In this document: positions 1,536-36,823 of the stretch, piece after piece | Layout: each line of letters begins with the position of its first letter | Position numbering within the stretch: the stretch's first letter is position 1 | Assembly (NCBI GenBank): GCA_900315485.1 | Contig: OMZI01000022.1 | Span: 1-46,100 of the forward strand | Source: an uncultured Eubacteriales bacterium | GTDB taxonomy: Bacteria; Bacillota; Clostridia; Peptostreptococcales; Anaerovoracaceae | DNA: 46,100 nucleotides | Direction of reading: 5' to 3' | Position numbers and translations under genes: made by a program | The notes under the pieces: generated by a model | Database searches by the model: none | What the model saw: only the letters and a program-made list of their open reading frames with translations | Told to the model about the DNA's origin: nothing

Positions 1536-2297
1536 TCACCGGGTGCGCCTTAATATAGCCTCAGCTATCTCAATATCCTGCGGAAATGTGATCTTGATAT
1601 TCCAGCTCTCACCTTTGACGATCTCTACAGGTTCACCTTTCATGACATATATCCTGGCTGCATCCGTGAGGACTTCCTTCTCTTCTTCAGTCAGTCTCAG
1701 GTACAGATCGCGGAGTTTCTTCGCTCTGAAGGTCTGCGGGGTCTGCACCATCCACAGTCTTGATCTGTCAGGAACCGTTGCCACGTGCTTGCCGTCTTCA
1801 GTCTCGATGATCGTATCTGTTGCAGGGAACGCCGTCTCACATGCACCGGTCTCCCTTGCGGCTGCAATGTTCTCTCTTATCATCCGCTCTGTTACGAACG
1901 GTCTCACTGCATCATGCGTTACGATGACCGTCTCATCGTCCAGGTTGCCATCCGCCTCGATGACCGATATCGCATTCATCAAGGTCTCGTTCCTTGTCGG
2001 ACCGCCTGCTGCCACTGTGATCCGGGCGCTTTCTCCTGAGTCTTTACCTGCGCAGTCAGGCATCTCTTTCCCGGGCCCGGATGACGGACCGCCAAAATAC
2101 TGCACCAGGAGATTTCGTGTATAGTCGCACCACTCTGCAGGAGTCACGACGATAACTCTGTCGATCTCGTCGCACTCCATGAATCGTTCGACCGTATGAA
2201 CTATTACAGGTTTACCGCTGAACTCGAGGAACTGCTTGGGCTTATCTGCGCCCATCCTTGATCCGATGCCGCCCGCCAGTACCGCTGCGTATATCAT
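1536..2297 (-). CDS. IspD/TarI-family cytidylyltransferase
   Basis: A 253-residue nucleotidyltransferase that transfers CMP from CTP to a sugar or polyol phosphate. The N-terminal LAGGIGSRMG loop followed by KPKQFLEF is the CTP-binding signature. IVTHDAVRPF holds the metal-binding Asp, and the C-terminal VKGESWNIKITFPQD is conserved. IspD makes CDP-methylerythritol (isoprenoids); TarI makes CDP-ribitol (teichoic acid). The wording VTPAEW, VIVTHDAVRPF, LTDA and WNIKIT reads closer to TarI, but both products remain possible. About 20 extra residues (GGPSSGPGKEMPD region) interrupt the usual sequence. The ATG at 2297 overlaps the hipT stop as ATGA, with GGGAGG 9 nt upstream, so it is the fourth cistron of the hipBST operon. 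Confidence 0.8.
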   Translation of the reverse strand: MIYAAVLAGGIGSRMGADKPKQFLEFSGKPVIVHTVERFMECDEIDRVIVVTPAEWCDYTRNLLVQYFGGPSSGPGKEMPDCAGKDSGESARITVAAGGPTRNETLMNAISVIEADGNLDDETVIVTHDAVRPFVTERMIRENIAAARETGACETAFPATDTIIETEDGKHVATVPDRSRLWMVQTPQTFRAKKLRDLYLRLTEEEKEVLTDAARIYVMKGEPVEIVKGESWNIKITFPQDIEIAEAILRRTR

Positions 2298-3316
2298 TTC
2301 GCGCGACCTCCCTTTTCTCTCAATCTCTCAGTTCTCTCCTTTACCAGAGCTGCAAATCTTTCTTTCACGGTATCAGGGATCAGTGATGCTCTAATCATTT
2401 CCAGATACACGGACTCCCTGTCTGTAATCGATCTTATCAGCCGGTCTGCCGTCTTTGCATCTATGCCGCATGATAATGCAAGTGAGTCAAAGTCCGGGCG
2501 CTTCAGCCTGCGTCTCTTGCCGCAGAGTGTCAGCGCTGTCTCCTCGTCATCATCAGAAACTATATTGACGGGAAGCAGATCATATGCCGGAGACAGTCTG
2601 TACTGCCTTGATCCCGGTGCGTCTTCAATCAGCGAGAAGTTCTTGAGATGCATGTCCGAGTTTCCTGTTATGAAGCAGAAAAGTATCCGCATGTAGAATT
2701 CTGACATGTCTAGCGGTGCCCACATTGAGTGTTCACGTATTATCTTCGCACACACCTCATATGATCCCTTATATTTATCCTCAGTGAGTCTTCCGCTGAG
2801 CTGACAGAAGTCCTCCATCGCCAGCATTCCGGCAGGAGTATCTGCTGTCCGGTCTATTCTTCTGGTTATATATGCGTACTCACCAGTCAGTTCTTTTTCA
2901 GATTGGTGTTCACGATCACCTGTGGCTGCAGGTCTCCATATCAGCGCATGCGGAACAGTCCTGATACCGGCTGCATCTGCCATCTGCATAACAAGCTGCT
3001 CGGCTTCAGGAAGATGCGGGTACTCATCCGTCTGAGGCTTGAGAATATACCCTGCTGCATGATCCACCACTGTCATCCTCGGCTTCCTCCTGCCGGATCG
3101 ATCCAGGTTGATGGACATCTTCTTCTGCACACCGGCAACTGTCCGTCCCTGCTCTGTTCCTGCAGCAGCGAGCTCTGCAAGTGCTTCAGGCTCCAGATCT
3201 ATCTGCGGCATGGATGACGTGCCGAAAAAGGAACGGATACATTTTGCATGCCAGCGGTATTCCTGTTCCTGCACGCCAGGATTCTGTATGTTTTTACCAC
3301 AGCAAAGGCATTTCAT
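2294..3316 (-). CDS. hipT: HipT-like Ser/Thr kinase toxin (HipA C-terminal type)
   Basis: A 340-residue HipA-fold kinase lacking the N-terminal subdomain, which is encoded separately upstream as in HipBST systems. The start ATG at 3316 is set by GGAGGTGCAGCG and the ATGA overlap with hipS. The N-terminus has a possible zinc knuckle (C3xxC6, H23xxC26). A Gly-rich loop TVAGVQKK is at 59-66, the ATP lysine in ILKP (Lys93), and an acidic partner near Glu104/Glu106. The catalytic loop NSDMHLKN (219-226) has Asp221 and Asn226, and the metal-binding Asp is Asp246 in YDLLP. In E. coli O127 HipT phosphorylates TrpS and autophosphorylates two serines in an SIS motif; here the equivalent reads TVA, so the second site is lost. 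The target is not known here. Confidence 0.85.
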   Translation of the reverse strand: MKCLCCGKNIQNPGVQEQEYRWHAKCIRSFFGTSSMPQIDLEPEALAELAAAGTEQGRTVAGVQKKMSINLDRSGRRKPRMTVVDHAAGYILKPQTDEYPHLPEAEQLVMQMADAAGIRTVPHALIWRPAATGDREHQSEKELTGEYAYITRRIDRTADTPAGMLAMEDFCQLSGRLTEDKYKGSYEVCAKIIREHSMWAPLDMSEFYMRILFCFITGNSDMHLKNFSLIEDAPGSRQYRLSPAYDLLPVNIVSDDDEETALTLCGKRRRLKRPDFDSLALSCGIDAKTADRLIRSITDRESVYLEMIRASLIPDTVKERFAALVKERTERLREKGGRAK

Positions 3317-17264: not shown

Positions 17265-17310
17265 TTACTTTCTACCTTTTCTATGCGCAGTATCAGTTAT
17301 TTATTCGCTT

Positions 17311-17403
17311 TTGACAATGCATCTTCTCGGAACGAGAACCCCGCAGACGCATTCAGTGCATGTCGCGTCGAGGACTCGAGTGAAGAGAACGATGCATTGG
17401 CAA
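17311..17403 (-). repeat. Structured 3'-UTR element D (GTCCTC/TCTGCGG family)
   Basis: On the minus strand it starts 9 bp after the parE-like stop. The outer stem pairs GAGAACGATGCATTGGCAA (17385-17403) with TTGACAATGCATCTTCTC (17311-17328), with one bulge and one mismatch. Inside are CTTCACTCGAGTCCTC, a variable GACGC/GCGTC stem and TCTGCGGGGTTCTCGTTC, matching copies at 30.2, 34.4 and 35.8 kb. Confidence 0.8.
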
Positions 17404-17412
17404 CGCGATACA

Positions 17413-23486: not shown

Positions 23487-25703
<2,217 letters not shown>

Positions 25704-30176: not shown

Positions 30177-30280
30177 AAAGCAGCACTTATATATCGTAAT
30201 GCGAGTATTCCGCAGAACCTGCCTTCAGGATATGCTGCAGGTTTGAGGACGCGAGCAGTGCGATATATAAGTGCTGCTTT
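30177..30280 (-). repeat. Structured 3'-UTR element A (GTCCTC/TCTGCGG family)
   Basis: A perfect 20-bp outer stem joins AAAGCAGCACTTATATATCG (30177-30196) to its complement (30261-30280). On the minus strand the interior reads CACTGCTCGCGTCCTC, a variable hairpin (ACCTGC/GCAGGT), then TTCTGCGGAATACTCGCATT. It begins 10 bp after the jag stop, in sense orientation to jag. Confidence 0.85.
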
Positions 30281-33043: not shown

Positions 33044-34387
33044 TTGGACAAAAACAAGATATGGGGTACTACTCTCAATTACCTCAAGGCAAATACAACT
33101 GAACTAAGCTATAATACCTGGATCTCTCCTCTCTACATCCATCACATTGAGGAAGAAGCAGGTATTATTTATCTTGCATGGCCTAATCAGTCAAAATTAG
33201 TCAATCATCTGAACGAACATTACCTCAATCAGATTGAAAATGCACTTAACAGCAGCCTTGATAAACCATACAGAGTAGTAATCAGGCAGGAAAAAGAATA
33301 CGACGTTAATAAGATAGATACAACAAGGATGAAGAACCCTCTCAATCAGGAGAAACTCTTCAACCCTCGTTTTAATTTTGAAAATTTTGTAGTAGGAAAT
33401 TCTAATAAATATGCACATGCAGTATCTGTAGCAGTAGCAGAGGCTCCGGGAGAAATATATAATCCTCTTTTTATTTACGGAGGATCCGGTCTGGGCAAAA
33501 CTCATCTGATGCAGGCCATAGGTGTACAGATAATAAGGAACAATCCGAGTACCAAAGTACTCTATGTTTCCACCGAAATGTTTACAAATGAGCTTATTAC
33601 TGCAATCAATGACAATAAAACAAGAAGTTTCCGCAATAAATACAGAAAAGTGGATGTACTTCTCATAGATGACATACATTTTTTACAGGGTAAAGAAGCA
33701 ACACAGGAAGAATTTTTCCATACTTTTGAAACACTTTACCAGAACAACAAGCAGATAGTCATTACAAGTGACTGCCCGCCGGTAAGTCTCAAGGGTCTTG
33801 ATGAAAGACTCAGAACCAGATTCAGCTGGAACATGATAGCAGATATACAGCCGCCTGATTATGAGACAAGAGTAGCTATTCTCAAGAATCTCGCTGAAAA
33901 GTCTGATCTTGAAATGAATTCTGATCTGTATGATGTACTCTGCATGATAGCTGACCAGGTCAAGGATAATATAAGAGAACTTGAAGGTGCATATAACAGA
34001 GTTATCGGATTATCCCAGCTTCTCAATGAAAAAATAACTGTTGATAATGCCAAGAGCATACTCAAGGACATCATTAAAGATAATGAGCAGGCAGTTGCTC
34101 CTGAAAGAATAAGATCAACAGTAGCAAATCATTACAAAATCAAGATTGCTGACATGGATTCTCCTAAGAGAAATGCAGAAATAACTCTTCCTAGACAGGT
34201 AGCAATGTATCTGTGCAGAGAAACTACAGAACTTTCACTTCCTAAAATAGGAAAACTCTTCGGAAACAGACACTATTCAACAGTTATACATGCAGTTGAA
34301 AAGATAGAAGATGAGCTGAAGTATGATGAAGAGCTGCGTGAAAATGTAGAAACTATAAAAGCAAAGCTGAATATAGGAAGAAGATAA
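33044..34387 (+). CDS. dnaA: Chromosomal replication initiator DnaA
   Basis: A 447-residue AAA+ initiator. Domain I (about 1-85) includes NTWISPL. Domain II is short. Domain III has Walker A GGSGLGKT (146-153), Walker B LLIDD (206-210) and sensor 1 IVITSD. Domain IV binds DnaA boxes through RQVAMYLCRE and GNRHYSTVIHAV. It starts with TTG at 33044, 7 nt after AGGAG, a weak start that keeps initiator levels low. It is flanked by DnaA-box clusters on both sides. Structured element C begins 7 bp after the stop. Confidence 0.98.
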   Translation: MDKNKIWGTTLNYLKANTTELSYNTWISPLYIHHIEEEAGIIYLAWPNQSKLVNHLNEHYLNQIENALNSSLDKPYRVVIRQEKEYDVNKIDTTRMKNPLNQEKLFNPRFNFENFVVGNSNKYAHAVSVAVAEAPGEIYNPLFIYGGSGLGKTHLMQAIGVQIIRNNPSTKVLYVSTEMFTNELITAINDNKTRSFRNKYRKVDVLLIDDIHFLQGKEATQEEFFHTFETLYQNNKQIVITSDCPPVSLKGLDERLRTRFSWNMIADIQPPDYETRVAILKNLAEKSDLEMNSDLYDVLCMIADQVKDNIRELEGAYNRVIGLSQLLNEKITVDNAKSILKDIIKDNEQAVAPERIRSTVANHYKIKIADMDSPKRNAEITLPRQVAMYLCRETTELSLPKIGKLFGNRHYSTVIHAVEKIEDELKYDEELRENVETIKAKLNIGRR

Positions 34388-34394
34388 TATTTAA

Positions 34395-34492
34395 AATCAA
34401 ATAAAAATATTCGCTTCACTCGAGTCCTCAAAAGTGCGCATATCCTTACAGCACTTTCTGCGGAATTCTCGTTCATCAAAATTTTTATTTGA
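34395..34492 (+). repeat. Structured 3'-UTR element C (GTCCTC/TCTGCGG family)
   Basis: The outer stem ATCAAATAAAAAT (34395-34407) / ATTTTTATTTGAT (34480-34492) is perfect over 13 bp. Inside are CTTCACTCGAGTCCTC, a variable stem AAGTGC/GCACTT and TCTGCGGAATTCTCGTTC. It lies 7 bp after the dnaA stop, in sense orientation. Confidence 0.85.
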
Positions 34493-34665
34493 TCTATGAA
34501 CTTTTAAACATTATTTATAACAATTATCAACTTTGTTTTTAACTGGATGAATGTGGTGTTAACTGCTGAAATTTCAATGTTTTAAGAAGTTATCCACATT
34601 ATCCACACTCCCTACTGTTAATACTATAATCTTATATATAAATATGATCCCGGAGGATGACCGAT
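34493..34665. other. Replication origin, right part (dnaA-dnaN)
   Basis: Two perfect DnaA boxes TTATCCACA abut directly (34590-34598 and 34599-34607). TATAAT at 34625-34630 marks the likely dnaN -10, so DnaA bound there would cover its -35 region. The stretch is AT-rich. With 32694-33043 it forms a bipartite origin flanking dnaA. Confidence 0.75.
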
Positions 34666-35769
34666 ATGAAGATGTACTGCAACAGATCTGAACTGAACAG
34701 GGCTCTTGCCAACGTTTCACATTCAGTACCTGTAAGATCAACTTCAAATATACTTGAAGGTATTCTTGTTGAAGTAAGCAACGGCTTTATGAAGCTGACT
34801 GCCACTGATACAAACATCACGATAGAATCCAGCATCAGCGTACAGACAAGTGATGATTTTGCATTCGTTGTACCGGCAAAGCTGTTTACTGCTATCGTAA
34901 ACAAGCTGCCTGAAGAAGAAATGATGATAGATTTTGATCCTGCATCTGTAAAGATTATGATAAGATGCGGAGGATCCAATTCTGAACTTATCTGCTTCAG
35001 AGCTGATGAATTTCCTAAGATCAGGATCAATGATGGTGTAAATCAGATATATCTCAGCAAGGAAGATGTCAAGAAGCTGATAAGAAAGACTGCTTTCAGT
35101 GCTTCCACTGATGATTTCAACGGAATTCTTACAGGAGTTCTTCTTGAGATAAAGGATGGAAAGATGAAGATGGTAGGTGTTGATCCTTACAGGATAGCTA
35201 CCTATAACATCGAAGTAACCAATAATTATGATATAAGTGTTGTCATTCCGGCCAAGCTTATAAATGAAACTGCCAAAATCATAAGTGATGAAGGCGAGGA
35301 TCAGATGAGTTTTGAGATTGCTGACGGTAAGGTTGTCATGAAATTTGACAACAACAGAGTAATCATCAACACTTTTTCAGGAAAATTCATCGATTACAAC
35401 AGGATTCTGAGCAAGCAGGGAGATATAAATGTAAGAGTAAAGAGAAATGACCTTTTGAGAAGTACAGAGAGAGCTTCCCTTCTAGCATCTGTACAGAACA
35501 ACAATCTTATAAGATTTGATATAGACAGTGATCTTATTGTTATAAAGTCACTCAATGAAGAAGGTAATATTGAGGAAAAGGTTGAGATAATAAATGACGG
35601 TGCAAGTCTCAATATTGGTCTCAATTCAAAGTACCTCAAGGATGCTCTCAGTGTAATTGAGGATGAAGAGATAATAATAAACTTCAGAGACAGCATCAGT
35701 CCTTGTGTTATAAAGCCTCTCAAGGGAGATAAGTATGCATATCTGATACTTCCTATCAGAATGAATTAA
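34666..35769 (+). CDS. dnaN: DNA polymerase III sliding clamp (beta)
   Basis: A 367-residue clamp of three tandem folds that tethers polymerase to DNA. It starts MKMYCNRSELNRALANVSHS and ends with ISPCVIKPLKGDKYAYLILP then IRMN, typical of the clamp C-terminus. The ATG at 34666 is chosen over 34657 because GGAGG (34652-34656) is 9 nt away from it and directly abuts the earlier one. Structured element B lies 16 bp past the stop. Confidence 0.97.
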   Translation: MKMYCNRSELNRALANVSHSVPVRSTSNILEGILVEVSNGFMKLTATDTNITIESSISVQTSDDFAFVVPAKLFTAIVNKLPEEEMMIDFDPASVKIMIRCGGSNSELICFRADEFPKIRINDGVNQIYLSKEDVKKLIRKTAFSASTDDFNGILTGVLLEIKDGKMKMVGVDPYRIATYNIEVTNNYDISVVIPAKLINETAKIISDEGEDQMSFEIADGKVVMKFDNNRVIINTFSGKFIDYNRILSKQGDINVRVKRNDLLRSTERASLLASVQNNNLIRFDIDSDLIVIKSLNEEGNIEEKVEIINDGASLNIGLNSKYLKDALSVIEDEEIIINFRDSISPCVIKPLKGDKYAYLILPIRMN

Positions 35770-35785
35770 GTTATTATATTTAAAT

Positions 35786-35884
35786 AAAAGAGCGTTTACA
35801 TCTCATTGCTCACGTCCTCGAAAATCTTTTATAAAATATATGATTTTCTGCGGAATATTCGCATTAAGATGTAAACGCTCTTTT
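35786..35884 (+). repeat. Structured 3'-UTR element B (GTCCTC/TCTGCGG family)
   Basis: A perfect 18-bp outer stem joins AAAAGAGCGTTTACATCT (35786-35803) to AGATGTAAACGCTCTTTT (35867-35884) and is followed by a T-run, so it can also terminate dnaN. Inside are CATTGCTCACGTCCTC, a variable AAAATC/GATTTT stem, and TTCTGCGGAATATTCGCATT. Confidence 0.88.
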
Positions 35885-35911
35885 TTCTTTATATTTATGA
35901 TCAGAATATGA

Positions 35912-36823
35912 TTATTTACATAGTTCTGCTGCTGTAAGTGCTGCTACTTTAGCATTATTGAATACCAGTCTTATATTGGATTCCAGGCTGTCTCCTCCTG
36001 TGATGTCCTTGACCTTGGCAAGAAGGAATGGTGTTGTAGCCTTTCCTTTGATTCCCAGTCTGTTACATTCCTCGATAGCTTCATCAATTGCAGGATTAAT
36101 TACATCAGGATCCATTGAATATTCTTCAGGTATAGGATTTGTTACAAGAACTCCTCCTCTTAGTCCTAGCTCAAGATGAGTATTGAAGAATTTTGCGAGG
36201 TCTTCCGGGCTGTCTACTTTGTAATCTACATTGAACCCGCTCTTTCTTGTATAGAATGCAGGCATTTCTTCAGTTCCGAAACCGAGTACAGGAACGCCGT
36301 GAGTTTCAAGATATTCAAGAGTAAGACCTATATCAAGGATAGATTTGCATCCTGCACATACTACCATTACAGGTGTCTGAGCAAGTTCTTCAAGGTCAGC
36401 ACTTATATCCATAGTGACTTCAGCACCTCTGTGTACTCCGCCGATCCCGCCGGTCGCGAAAACTTTGATGCCTGCCATATGTGCGATCATCATTGTAGTT
36501 GTTACAGTGCACGCACCATCCTCACCTCTTGCACACAGCATAGCAAGGTCTCTTCTTGAAGCCTTGGTTATTTCAGGGCCTTTTTTGCCAAAATATTCGA
36601 TTTCTTCAGGTGTGAGTCCGGCTTTAAGTCTGCCTCCGATGATTGCGATAGTTGCAGGTACTGCGCCGTTGTCTCTTATGATCTGCTCTACCTTTAGAGC
36701 AGTCTCAACATTCTGAGGATAAGGCATTCCGTGTGAAATGATAGTTGATTCGAGAGCAACTACAGGCTTGCCTGCTTCGATAGCTTCTTTTACTTCAGGT
36801 TTTATATCCAGGTATTTATTCAT
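35912..36823 (-). CDS. psuG: Pseudouridine-5'-phosphate glycosidase
   Basis: A 303-residue enzyme splitting pseudouridine 5'-phosphate into uracil and ribose 5-phosphate. Family motifs include VALESTIISHGMPYPQN near the N-terminus, TVTTTMMIAHMAGIKVFATG, GGIGGVHRGAE, and VTNPIPEEYSM. The catalytic Lys in the family lies in KASRRDL-type sequence. It starts 10 bp after psuK, with AAGGAG before the ATG, completing the two-step pathway. Confidence 0.95.
   Translation of the reverse strand: MNKYLDIKPEVKEAIEAGKPVVALESTIISHGMPYPQNVETALKVEQIIRDNGAVPATIAIIGGRLKAGLTPEEIEYFGKKGPEITKASRRDLAMLCARGEDGACTVTTTMMIAHMAGIKVFATGGIGGVHRGAEVTMDISADLEELAQTPVMVVCAGCKSILDIGLTLEYLETHGVPVLGFGTEEMPAFYTRKSGFNVDYKVDSPEDLAKFFNTHLELGLRGGVLVTNPIPEEYSMDPDVINPAIDEAIEECNRLGIKGKATTPFLLAKVKDITGGDSLESNIRLVFNNAKVAALTAAELCK

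Follow-up and report, generated by a model that had tools for sequence, protein, structure and literature searches.

Four palindromic elements of about 100 bp in the window, the 46,100-nucleotide stretch of contig OMZI01000022.1 analysed here, belong to a family with many copies in the same genome. The best explanation, in which we place about even confidence, is that they are dispersed palindromic DNA elements, broadly REP-, ERIC- or MITE-like, with a core that is read in either orientation and stems that serve as 3′-end hairpins and sometimes as terminators. What is observed is that the copies are dispersed, are gained and lost between relatives, occur in mixed orientations that can switch, lie preferentially 3′ of genes and differ little in their cores between orthologs; the explanation is independent of strand. 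A preliminary description of the window had treated the elements as sense-oriented RNA. Its observation is confirmed, the family, the covariation and the 3′ placement being real, while a strictly sense RNA was not supported.

Four elements in the window

All four elements of the preliminary description are present, both as sequence and as covariance-model matches. The genes in sense orientation end 7–15 nt upstream of them, in line with the 7–16 bp after a stop codon described before. The host genes had been named dnaA, dnaN, jag and parE-like; DnaA, DnaN and Jag/EloR score above the NCBIfam cut-off, while the topoisomerase B subunit scores below it. The copies and their core strands, the latter assigned from the sequence, are:

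17311..17403, minus strand: copy after the topoisomerase B-subunit (parE/gyrB-like) gene; type B core; covariance-model match 17310-17404, 52.7 bits, E 1.1e-10
17370..17379, minus strand: core 5′ strand of the parE-like copy, TCGAGTCCTC
17334..17346, minus strand: core 3′ strand of the parE-like copy, CTGCGGGGTTCTC
30177..30280, minus strand: copy after jag; type A core, terminator-like T tract; covariance-model match 30178-30279, 93.3 bits
30245..30254, minus strand: core 5′ strand of the jag copy, TCGCGTCCTC
30203..30215, minus strand: core 3′ strand of the jag copy, CTGCGGAATACTC
34395..34492, plus strand: copy between dnaA and dnaN; type B core; covariance-model match 34395-34494, 66.7 bits
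34420..34429, plus strand: core 5′ strand of the dnaA copy, TCGAGTCCTC
34458..34470, plus strand: core 3′ strand of the dnaA copy, CTGCGGAATTCTC
35786..35884, plus strand: copy between the convergent dnaN and the gene at 35912-36823; type A core; covariance-model match 35785-35885, 93.8 bits
35810..35819, plus strand: core 5′ strand of the dnaN copy, TCACGTCCTC, conserved between orthologs
35848..35860, plus strand: core 3′ strand of the dnaN copy, CTGCGGAATATTC, conserved between orthologs

The dnaN copy is preceded by an A tract and followed by a T tract.

A covarying family of imperfect hairpins

Covariance model R1 identifies 27 copies in the genome of the window (G000), all at E 2.1e-7 or better and including the four window copies. 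The motif of the 3′ strand, allowing up to two mismatches, gives 27 matches in this genome vs 2 for a reversed control, and on inspection 17 of these 27 motif loci proved to be elements. Chance does not account for the family. Building such a model and searching the genome and its relatives, the check proposed in the preliminary description, thus yielded 27 copies in the genome itself and more in the relatives.

The first alignment consists of 26 copies, 18 from the own genome and 8 from two named MAGs, six of 32 having been omitted as near-duplicates. It is gap-free outside the inner hairpin. With the hairpin taken as the structure, 85.8% of cells pair and 226 cells show changes on both sides, against 73 in shuffles. 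The covariation score is 0.606, compared to 0.195 for shuffled and at most 0.181 for slid alignments, which bears out the claim that the stems vary while keeping their pairing. Covarying pairs do not distinguish RNA from DNA. A second model, R2, was built from 87 aligned matches; full-length model matches are about 80–146 nt long.

The unit is an imperfect hairpin of about 100 bp in which long outer arms enclose an asymmetric core that hardly varies and, inside it, an inner hairpin that does. The arms span about 20 bp, and their inner part is common to subfamilies. From the outside in, the arms are followed by UCRCG/AUAYUC, in which the R-Y pair covaries (14 GC, 11 AU and 1 GU in 26 copies), then by UCC/GGA, by a U/C, C-G, U step and finally by the variable inner stem. 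On the strand read in the preliminary description (hereafter the described strand) the core is GUCCUCG ... CUGCGGR; its complement reads YCCGCAG ... CGAGGAC and contains tandem G-A loops. Two core types can be distinguished, A (CRCGTCC/GGAATAYTC) and B (CGAGTCC/GGRATTCTC), and in the further types found in other genera other pairings replace the loop.

The ends of the outer arms are the least conserved part of the element. The outer stems, described before as unrelated between copies, are indeed largely copy-specific, although the jag copy shares its stem with L041 and a subfamily has about 12 bp beside the core in common. The conserved strands, previously called non-complementary, do pair in part, through UCC/GGA and the covarying R-Y pair.

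An extra third hairpin occurs at one fixed place, the core bulge, in L065, L067, L165, L166, L167, L168 and L173. It has a stem near ATCATAAGG/CCTTATGAT with an inner CCGCTTGCGG in most cases. These seven fetched loci fall into five orthologous groups, in three of which the hairpin is present or absent depending on the species. At L170 (G149:C215:1-2200), a second, complete element seemingly lies inside the remains of a first one.

Constant core and paired arm changes

Across 27 ortholog pairs, with some loci counted twice via two relatives and gapped sites excluded, 4 of 661 core sites differ (0.6%). This count is biased, since the search that retrieved both orthologs, whether by model or by pattern, scores the core; too few degraded cores therefore enter it, and coreless sites are excluded. 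In the same pairs the arms differ at 112 of 1349 sites and the inner hairpin at 71 of 726 (8–10%), one pair adding 56 sites with the third hairpin among them; the 30-nt flanks differ at 297 of 1579. The constancy of the core holds in copies of both orientations.

In the 25 of 31 pairs whose arms could be aligned, all 16 double arm changes between orthologs end in Watson-Crick pairs, a number that falls to nine after removal of six from a single indel pair and of one duplicate. Both arms of L042/L078 carry an indel, and a position-by-position comparison overcounts their changes. The arms of six pairs did not align (L058/L097, L081/L093, L057/L170, L045/L116, L059/L168 and L062/L166); these set-aside pairs also show double changes to mismatches. 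Judged from these sequence comparisons, the core appears to be held, and the arms appear to drift while staying paired.

Placement and orientation relative to genes

We refer to a copy as sense or antisense by the orientation of the described strand relative to the nearest gene. Ten of the 27 own copies lie between convergent genes, eight are tandem sense, seven tandem antisense, one is divergent and one is at a contig edge; gene context was derived from a simple gene-calling script that makes errors, such as at L088, which was reassigned by reading. By the nearest stop codon, 17 copies are sense and 9 antisense, the divergent one having no stop codon assigned. A hand tally of non-redundant copies across the genomes fetched by then gives 33 sense vs 16 antisense (p 0.02), omitting L048, L172, L102, L083 and later finds. 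L041 is antisense by its nearest stop codon and is so counted in this tally; in the wobble and tract lists below, which include orthologs, it is sense.

The placement 3′ of genes is strong. There may be a mild preference for the sense orientation, which is not required. A strictly sense-oriented 3′-UTR element is not supported, given the 17:9 ratio of the own copies, the 8:7 ratio of the tandem ones and two in-place flips. Further sense-oriented copies with covarying stems had been expected; the covarying pairs were found, but the orientation was not consistent (17 sense, 9 antisense, 1 divergent). Conversely, random placement and orientation, or a lack of compensatory changes, had been named as signs of an inert mobile repeat. 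Half of this applies: orientation is nearly free, but the copies are placed non-randomly and show many compensatory changes.

With respect to replication the copies have no preferred orientation (15:12 by gene strand, 11:16 by GC skew), and single-strand transposition on the lagging strand was rejected on this ground. Several copies lie inside likely operons, among them atpD-atpC, ftsY-der and dxs-tlyA, the names being given from reading the proteins. T tracts (T at least 6 of 8 downstream) follow 15 of 40 sense and 4 of 20 antisense copies, and A tracts (A at least 6 of 8 upstream) precede 12 of 40 and 2 of 20, orthologs included. Such a T tract is missing from 41 of the 60 copies.

Distribution among genomes

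The element family is lineage-restricted. In a family sample, model R1 found copies in 4 of 148 genomes, and in the genus it found them in 8 of 47, own included (27 in G000, 21 in G177, 15 in G193, 7 in G167 and one each in four others). G148 has 22 copies, one of them only at E 0.54, and G149 has 15. Model R2 matched 13 of 349 genomes of the family, own included, in 7 of 92 genera. In an order sample of 393 genomes that includes the own family, R2 matched eight, all of them in the own family. Matches per genome in both R2 surveys are lower bounds, with 10–11 candidates scored per genome. Among named genome records, a set that may omit the near relatives of the own genome, only RUG11020 and SRR12081301_bin.56 match a strict pattern. 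Two strict patterns gave no match in viral contigs, and neither did the dnaN copy, used as query, in phages and plasmids.

The same core with different arms is found in six other genera. The core pattern has 15 matches in G123 vs 3 in controls and 10 vs 2 in G106; these form subfamilies of their own, partly in tandem, whose arms are different. In G185, G163, G035 and G226 the matches are few or barely above controls, and some lie within long palindromes. Tandem element copies occur in G123 and G226. Three cores lie within about 240 bp in G123:C152 (L303), and pairs are seen elsewhere (L304, L305, L306).

Turnover at orthologous sites

For 17 of the 27 own copies, a copy in the same orientation is present at the orthologous site among the fetched G148 and G149 loci. 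Two further copies are flipped in place, L042/L078 and L045/L079, the second being the dnaN copy and its counterpart in G149. After dnaN in G167, the counterpart (L116) is sense, with arms that are changed yet paired. The dnaA copy has an orthologous copy in G149 (L097).

The orthologous sites of the remaining eight copies were examined where contigs allowed. L051 lies between atpD- and atpC-like genes, and G177 and G193 lack its element. A coreless stem is found at the site of L050 in G177 and G193 and at that of L067 in G193, and a left-arm stretch is left at the sites of L043 and L066. The L063 site has a rearranged palindrome in G177, the L049 site has a different, simple hairpin, and the L047 site fell at contig ends. 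At the G177 site orthologous to the parE-like copy (L245), a rearranged palindrome retains the same right arm and has no recognisable core.

Copies of relatives are likewise missing from other genomes. The element of L094 is absent from the site in G000, G193 and G185, and those of L088 and L096 are absent in G000. At the sites of L075, L081 and L163, G000 has short left-arm stretches that may be remnants or host DNA. The L172 site in G000 (L243, G000:C35:27700-29000) contains a larger, diverged palindrome with core-like strands that R1 missed. Inspection by eye revealed no clear target-site duplication at L094, L088 or L051.

Insertion of the core into pre-existing terminators was rejected. 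The coreless hairpin at the L050 site keeps arm letters of unlinked copies (CAGTTTAT, CAGTACAAACTG), which makes deletion of the core more likely. In L163 the left arm takes in the stop codon of the host gene together with the last letters of the codon before it, and the right arm carries their complement. The element is absent there in the outgroups G173, G167 and G185, where divergence blurs the distinction between an empty site and a remnant; a foldback origin of these arms was set aside for this reason.

Among the loci listed, a plain terminator-like hairpin follows dnaN instead of the element in G163 and G157. Genus mates without an R1 match have other long palindromes near dnaN, again among the loci listed (on the 3′ side L138, L139, L143 and L145; on the 5′ side L133 and L136), and several parallel palindrome families may exist around dnaN in these genomes. 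G157 has two different dnaN genes, on contigs C18 and C24, and the surroundings of the C24 gene, as far as listed, are identical to those of G163:C35; this MAG may be mixed.

Folding of the two strands

The four window copies had been read as sense RNA. By RNA energy, three of the four have the complement as the better-folding strand, the parE-like copy being the exception. With RNA parameters the complement folds better in 24 of the 27 own copies, by a mean of 4.5 kcal/mol; the exceptions are L057, L061 and L063, which include the parE-like copy. With DNA parameters it does so in 26 of 27 (mean 2.5). Read on the complement, the U-C mismatches turn into tandem G-A, and the place of the C-A mismatch is taken by U-G (22 of 26), A-U (3) or C-G (1). 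For the same set of pairs, 87.5% of cells pair on the complement vs 83.3% on the described strand. The invariant G-U pair of the described strand, in turn, becomes A-C on the complement (26 of 26), and a consensus-like type B string folds better on the described strand. In other genera the complement is better in only 10 of 26 rows, one of which repeats another locus (2 of 11 in G123, 5 of 8 in G106). Since the own genome favours the complement and other genera do not, folding energy gives no general strand assignment and no strand is settled. Wobbles in the outer stems carry no strand signal either: GU:AC is 7:6 in 40 sense and 6:7 in 20 antisense copies, and a strand assignment from this difference was dropped.

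Candidate mobilising enzymes

No mobilising enzyme was found for the element. The own genome has a RAYT-like gene that scores below cut-off, with no element match in the 7 kb around it (L175); in G193 the RAYT match has a different repeat on either side, and G167 has seven element copies and no Y1_Tnp match. A RAYT/Y1 transposase was rejected as the mobiliser, as its presence does not track the copies and another palindrome flanks the G193 match. A second palindromic repeat is located at 25426-25469 of the window (GTGTCATCGGGGACGGTCC...TTTTGACAC) and has many near-identical matches in G177 and G193, two of which flank the RAYT-like match in G193 contig C165. The RAYT-like gene of the own genome seems to serve this other palindrome.

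At L055, a XerS-like tyrosine recombinase of 379 aa (1615-2754, minus strand), below the curated cut-off, ends 12 nt before the element copy. It is only a lead.

Interpretation and alternatives

As dispersed DNA elements, the copies would be recognised by a trans-acting protein that reads the core as a single-stranded or extruded hairpin, so that either orientation works. Recognition would serve spread, chromosome function or both. The long stem would act at its site as a 3′-end hairpin, with intrinsic, often bidirectional, termination confined to copies flanked by A/T tracts. Selection for pairing, template-switch repair of the palindrome or both could have produced the coordinated changes in the arms. 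Several findings count against this reading: no mobilising enzyme was found, no target-site duplication was clear by eye, the viral, phage and plasmid searches above gave no match, the termini vary most where those of MITEs are usually conserved, there is no orientation bias relative to replication, and the constrained core exceeds what is expected for inert mobile DNA, although the count behind it is biased by the core-scoring search. A shared binding partner, as suggested in the preliminary description, is possible, though a strictly sense 3′-UTR RNA is unsupported.

A cis-acting 3′-UTR RNA of the kind first proposed, to which a protein would bind or on which an RNase would act via the core, and which might be read from the complement strand, is unlikely. 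It would account for the low core divergence and the strong covariation, and the complement in the own genome gains tandem G-A loops and U-G wobbles, while the described strand shows the sense excess of the hand tally (33 vs 16, p 0.02). Against this, orientation flips between species, tandem copies are divided into 8 sense and 7 antisense with an equally constant core in both, the outer stems have no excess of GU over AC, and the better-folding strand varies by genus and is antisense to the upstream gene in three of the four window copies. We regard it as unlikely that the elements are mainly bidirectional intrinsic terminators with a conserved insert. The 10 of 27 own copies between convergent genes, the T tracts (15/40 sense, 4/20 antisense) and A tracts (12 and 2), the persistence of coreless stems and the plain terminator-like hairpins after dnaN in some element-free relatives, among the loci listed, are in keeping with such a role; however, 41 of 60 copies are without a T tract, several lie within likely operons (for example atpD-atpC, ftsY-der and dxs-tlyA), and termination does not explain a constant core.

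Quite unlikely in our estimate is a self-palindromising element, in which the core alone would be the heritable, possibly mobile unit and the arms would be made from flanking host DNA by inverted copying (template switching), giving each insertion a private stem that can flip. The copy-specific paired arms, the pairing-restoring double changes, the apparent matched indels in the arms of L042/L078 and the L163 arm are consistent with it. A plain inert MITE-like repeat of no present function fits the gains and losses, the deletion remnants and the flips, but is very unlikely given a core divergence of 0.6% vs 8–10% elsewhere in the copies, unless ectopic conversion or search bias explains the difference. 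It is highly improbable that the element is a recombination site read in folded form by a tyrosine recombinase, similar to integron attC, a site marked by R/L boxes and by an integrase that acts on its folded bottom strand. The element does fold into a hairpin of conserved structure whose bases are in part bulged and whose terminal part varies, and the XerS-like gene adjoins L055, with a homologous flank preceding the copy in G148; yet this is one recombinase adjacency among 27 copies, and many neighbours read as housekeeping genes rather than cassettes.

The fixed core points to a putative factor that reads it. Copies located after dnaA, dnaN and jag and inside an atp operon could also affect the expression of core genes.

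Comparison with known repeats and structured RNAs

The view that no matching family is known agrees with Rfam 15, where neither the window nor 16 loci have a match at gathering score. At a relaxed cut-off, region 34360-35920 gives only matches below gathering, the best being a eukaryotic microRNA hairpin (E 0.001). Structured RNAs in Rfam such as skipping-rope likewise are hairpins with a conserved internal loop, without an Rfam match for the element. A literature search that included parts of PMC3733652 and PMC6006769 returned no description of the family, which does not prove that there is none; the term 'clostrid' is absent from the main text of PMC3733652.

According to the parts of PMC3733652 consulted, REP sequences are short palindromes, often species-specific, that lie mostly downstream of genes in tandem or convergent spacers and are sometimes clustered. 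They measure 20–40 bp, with stems of 5–13 or 8–9 bp and an unpaired tag, GTAG or CGTC. The element resembles REP, BIME and REPIN sequences in its location 3′ of coding regions in tandem and convergent spacers, but is about 100 nt long, with a conserved core inside copy-specific arms, and lacks the size and tag of a REP. All four letters occur before its GTCC core, CGTC being present in type A and a few others and not in types B–D. The same parts of PMC3733652 describe CGTC families without a dedicated transposase and some REP dimers within longer palindromes. The transposase-less CGTC palindromes differ from the element in having a stem of 8–9 bp, a loop of 4–5 and a CCA tail. A RAYT-mobilised REPIN would have element copies flanking the RAYT gene, which is not the arrangement seen here.

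The termini of MITEs are usually their conserved part. In the element conserved terminal inverted repeats are lacking and the ends vary most. ERIC/IRU-type repeats are conserved in sequence throughout, in contrast to the arms of the element, whose sequence changes from copy to copy without loss of pairing. In known palindromic repeats of bacteria it is usually the whole unit that is conserved; here, only the asymmetric core is fixed across several genera, and the long arms change yet stay paired, which offers a natural test of whether palindromes in bacteria are kept up by selection or by template switching. In size, inverted-repeat build and intergenic sites, the element resembles ERIC/IRU and other intergenic repeats of 100–170 bp (compare PMC2759123 and PMC2229807).
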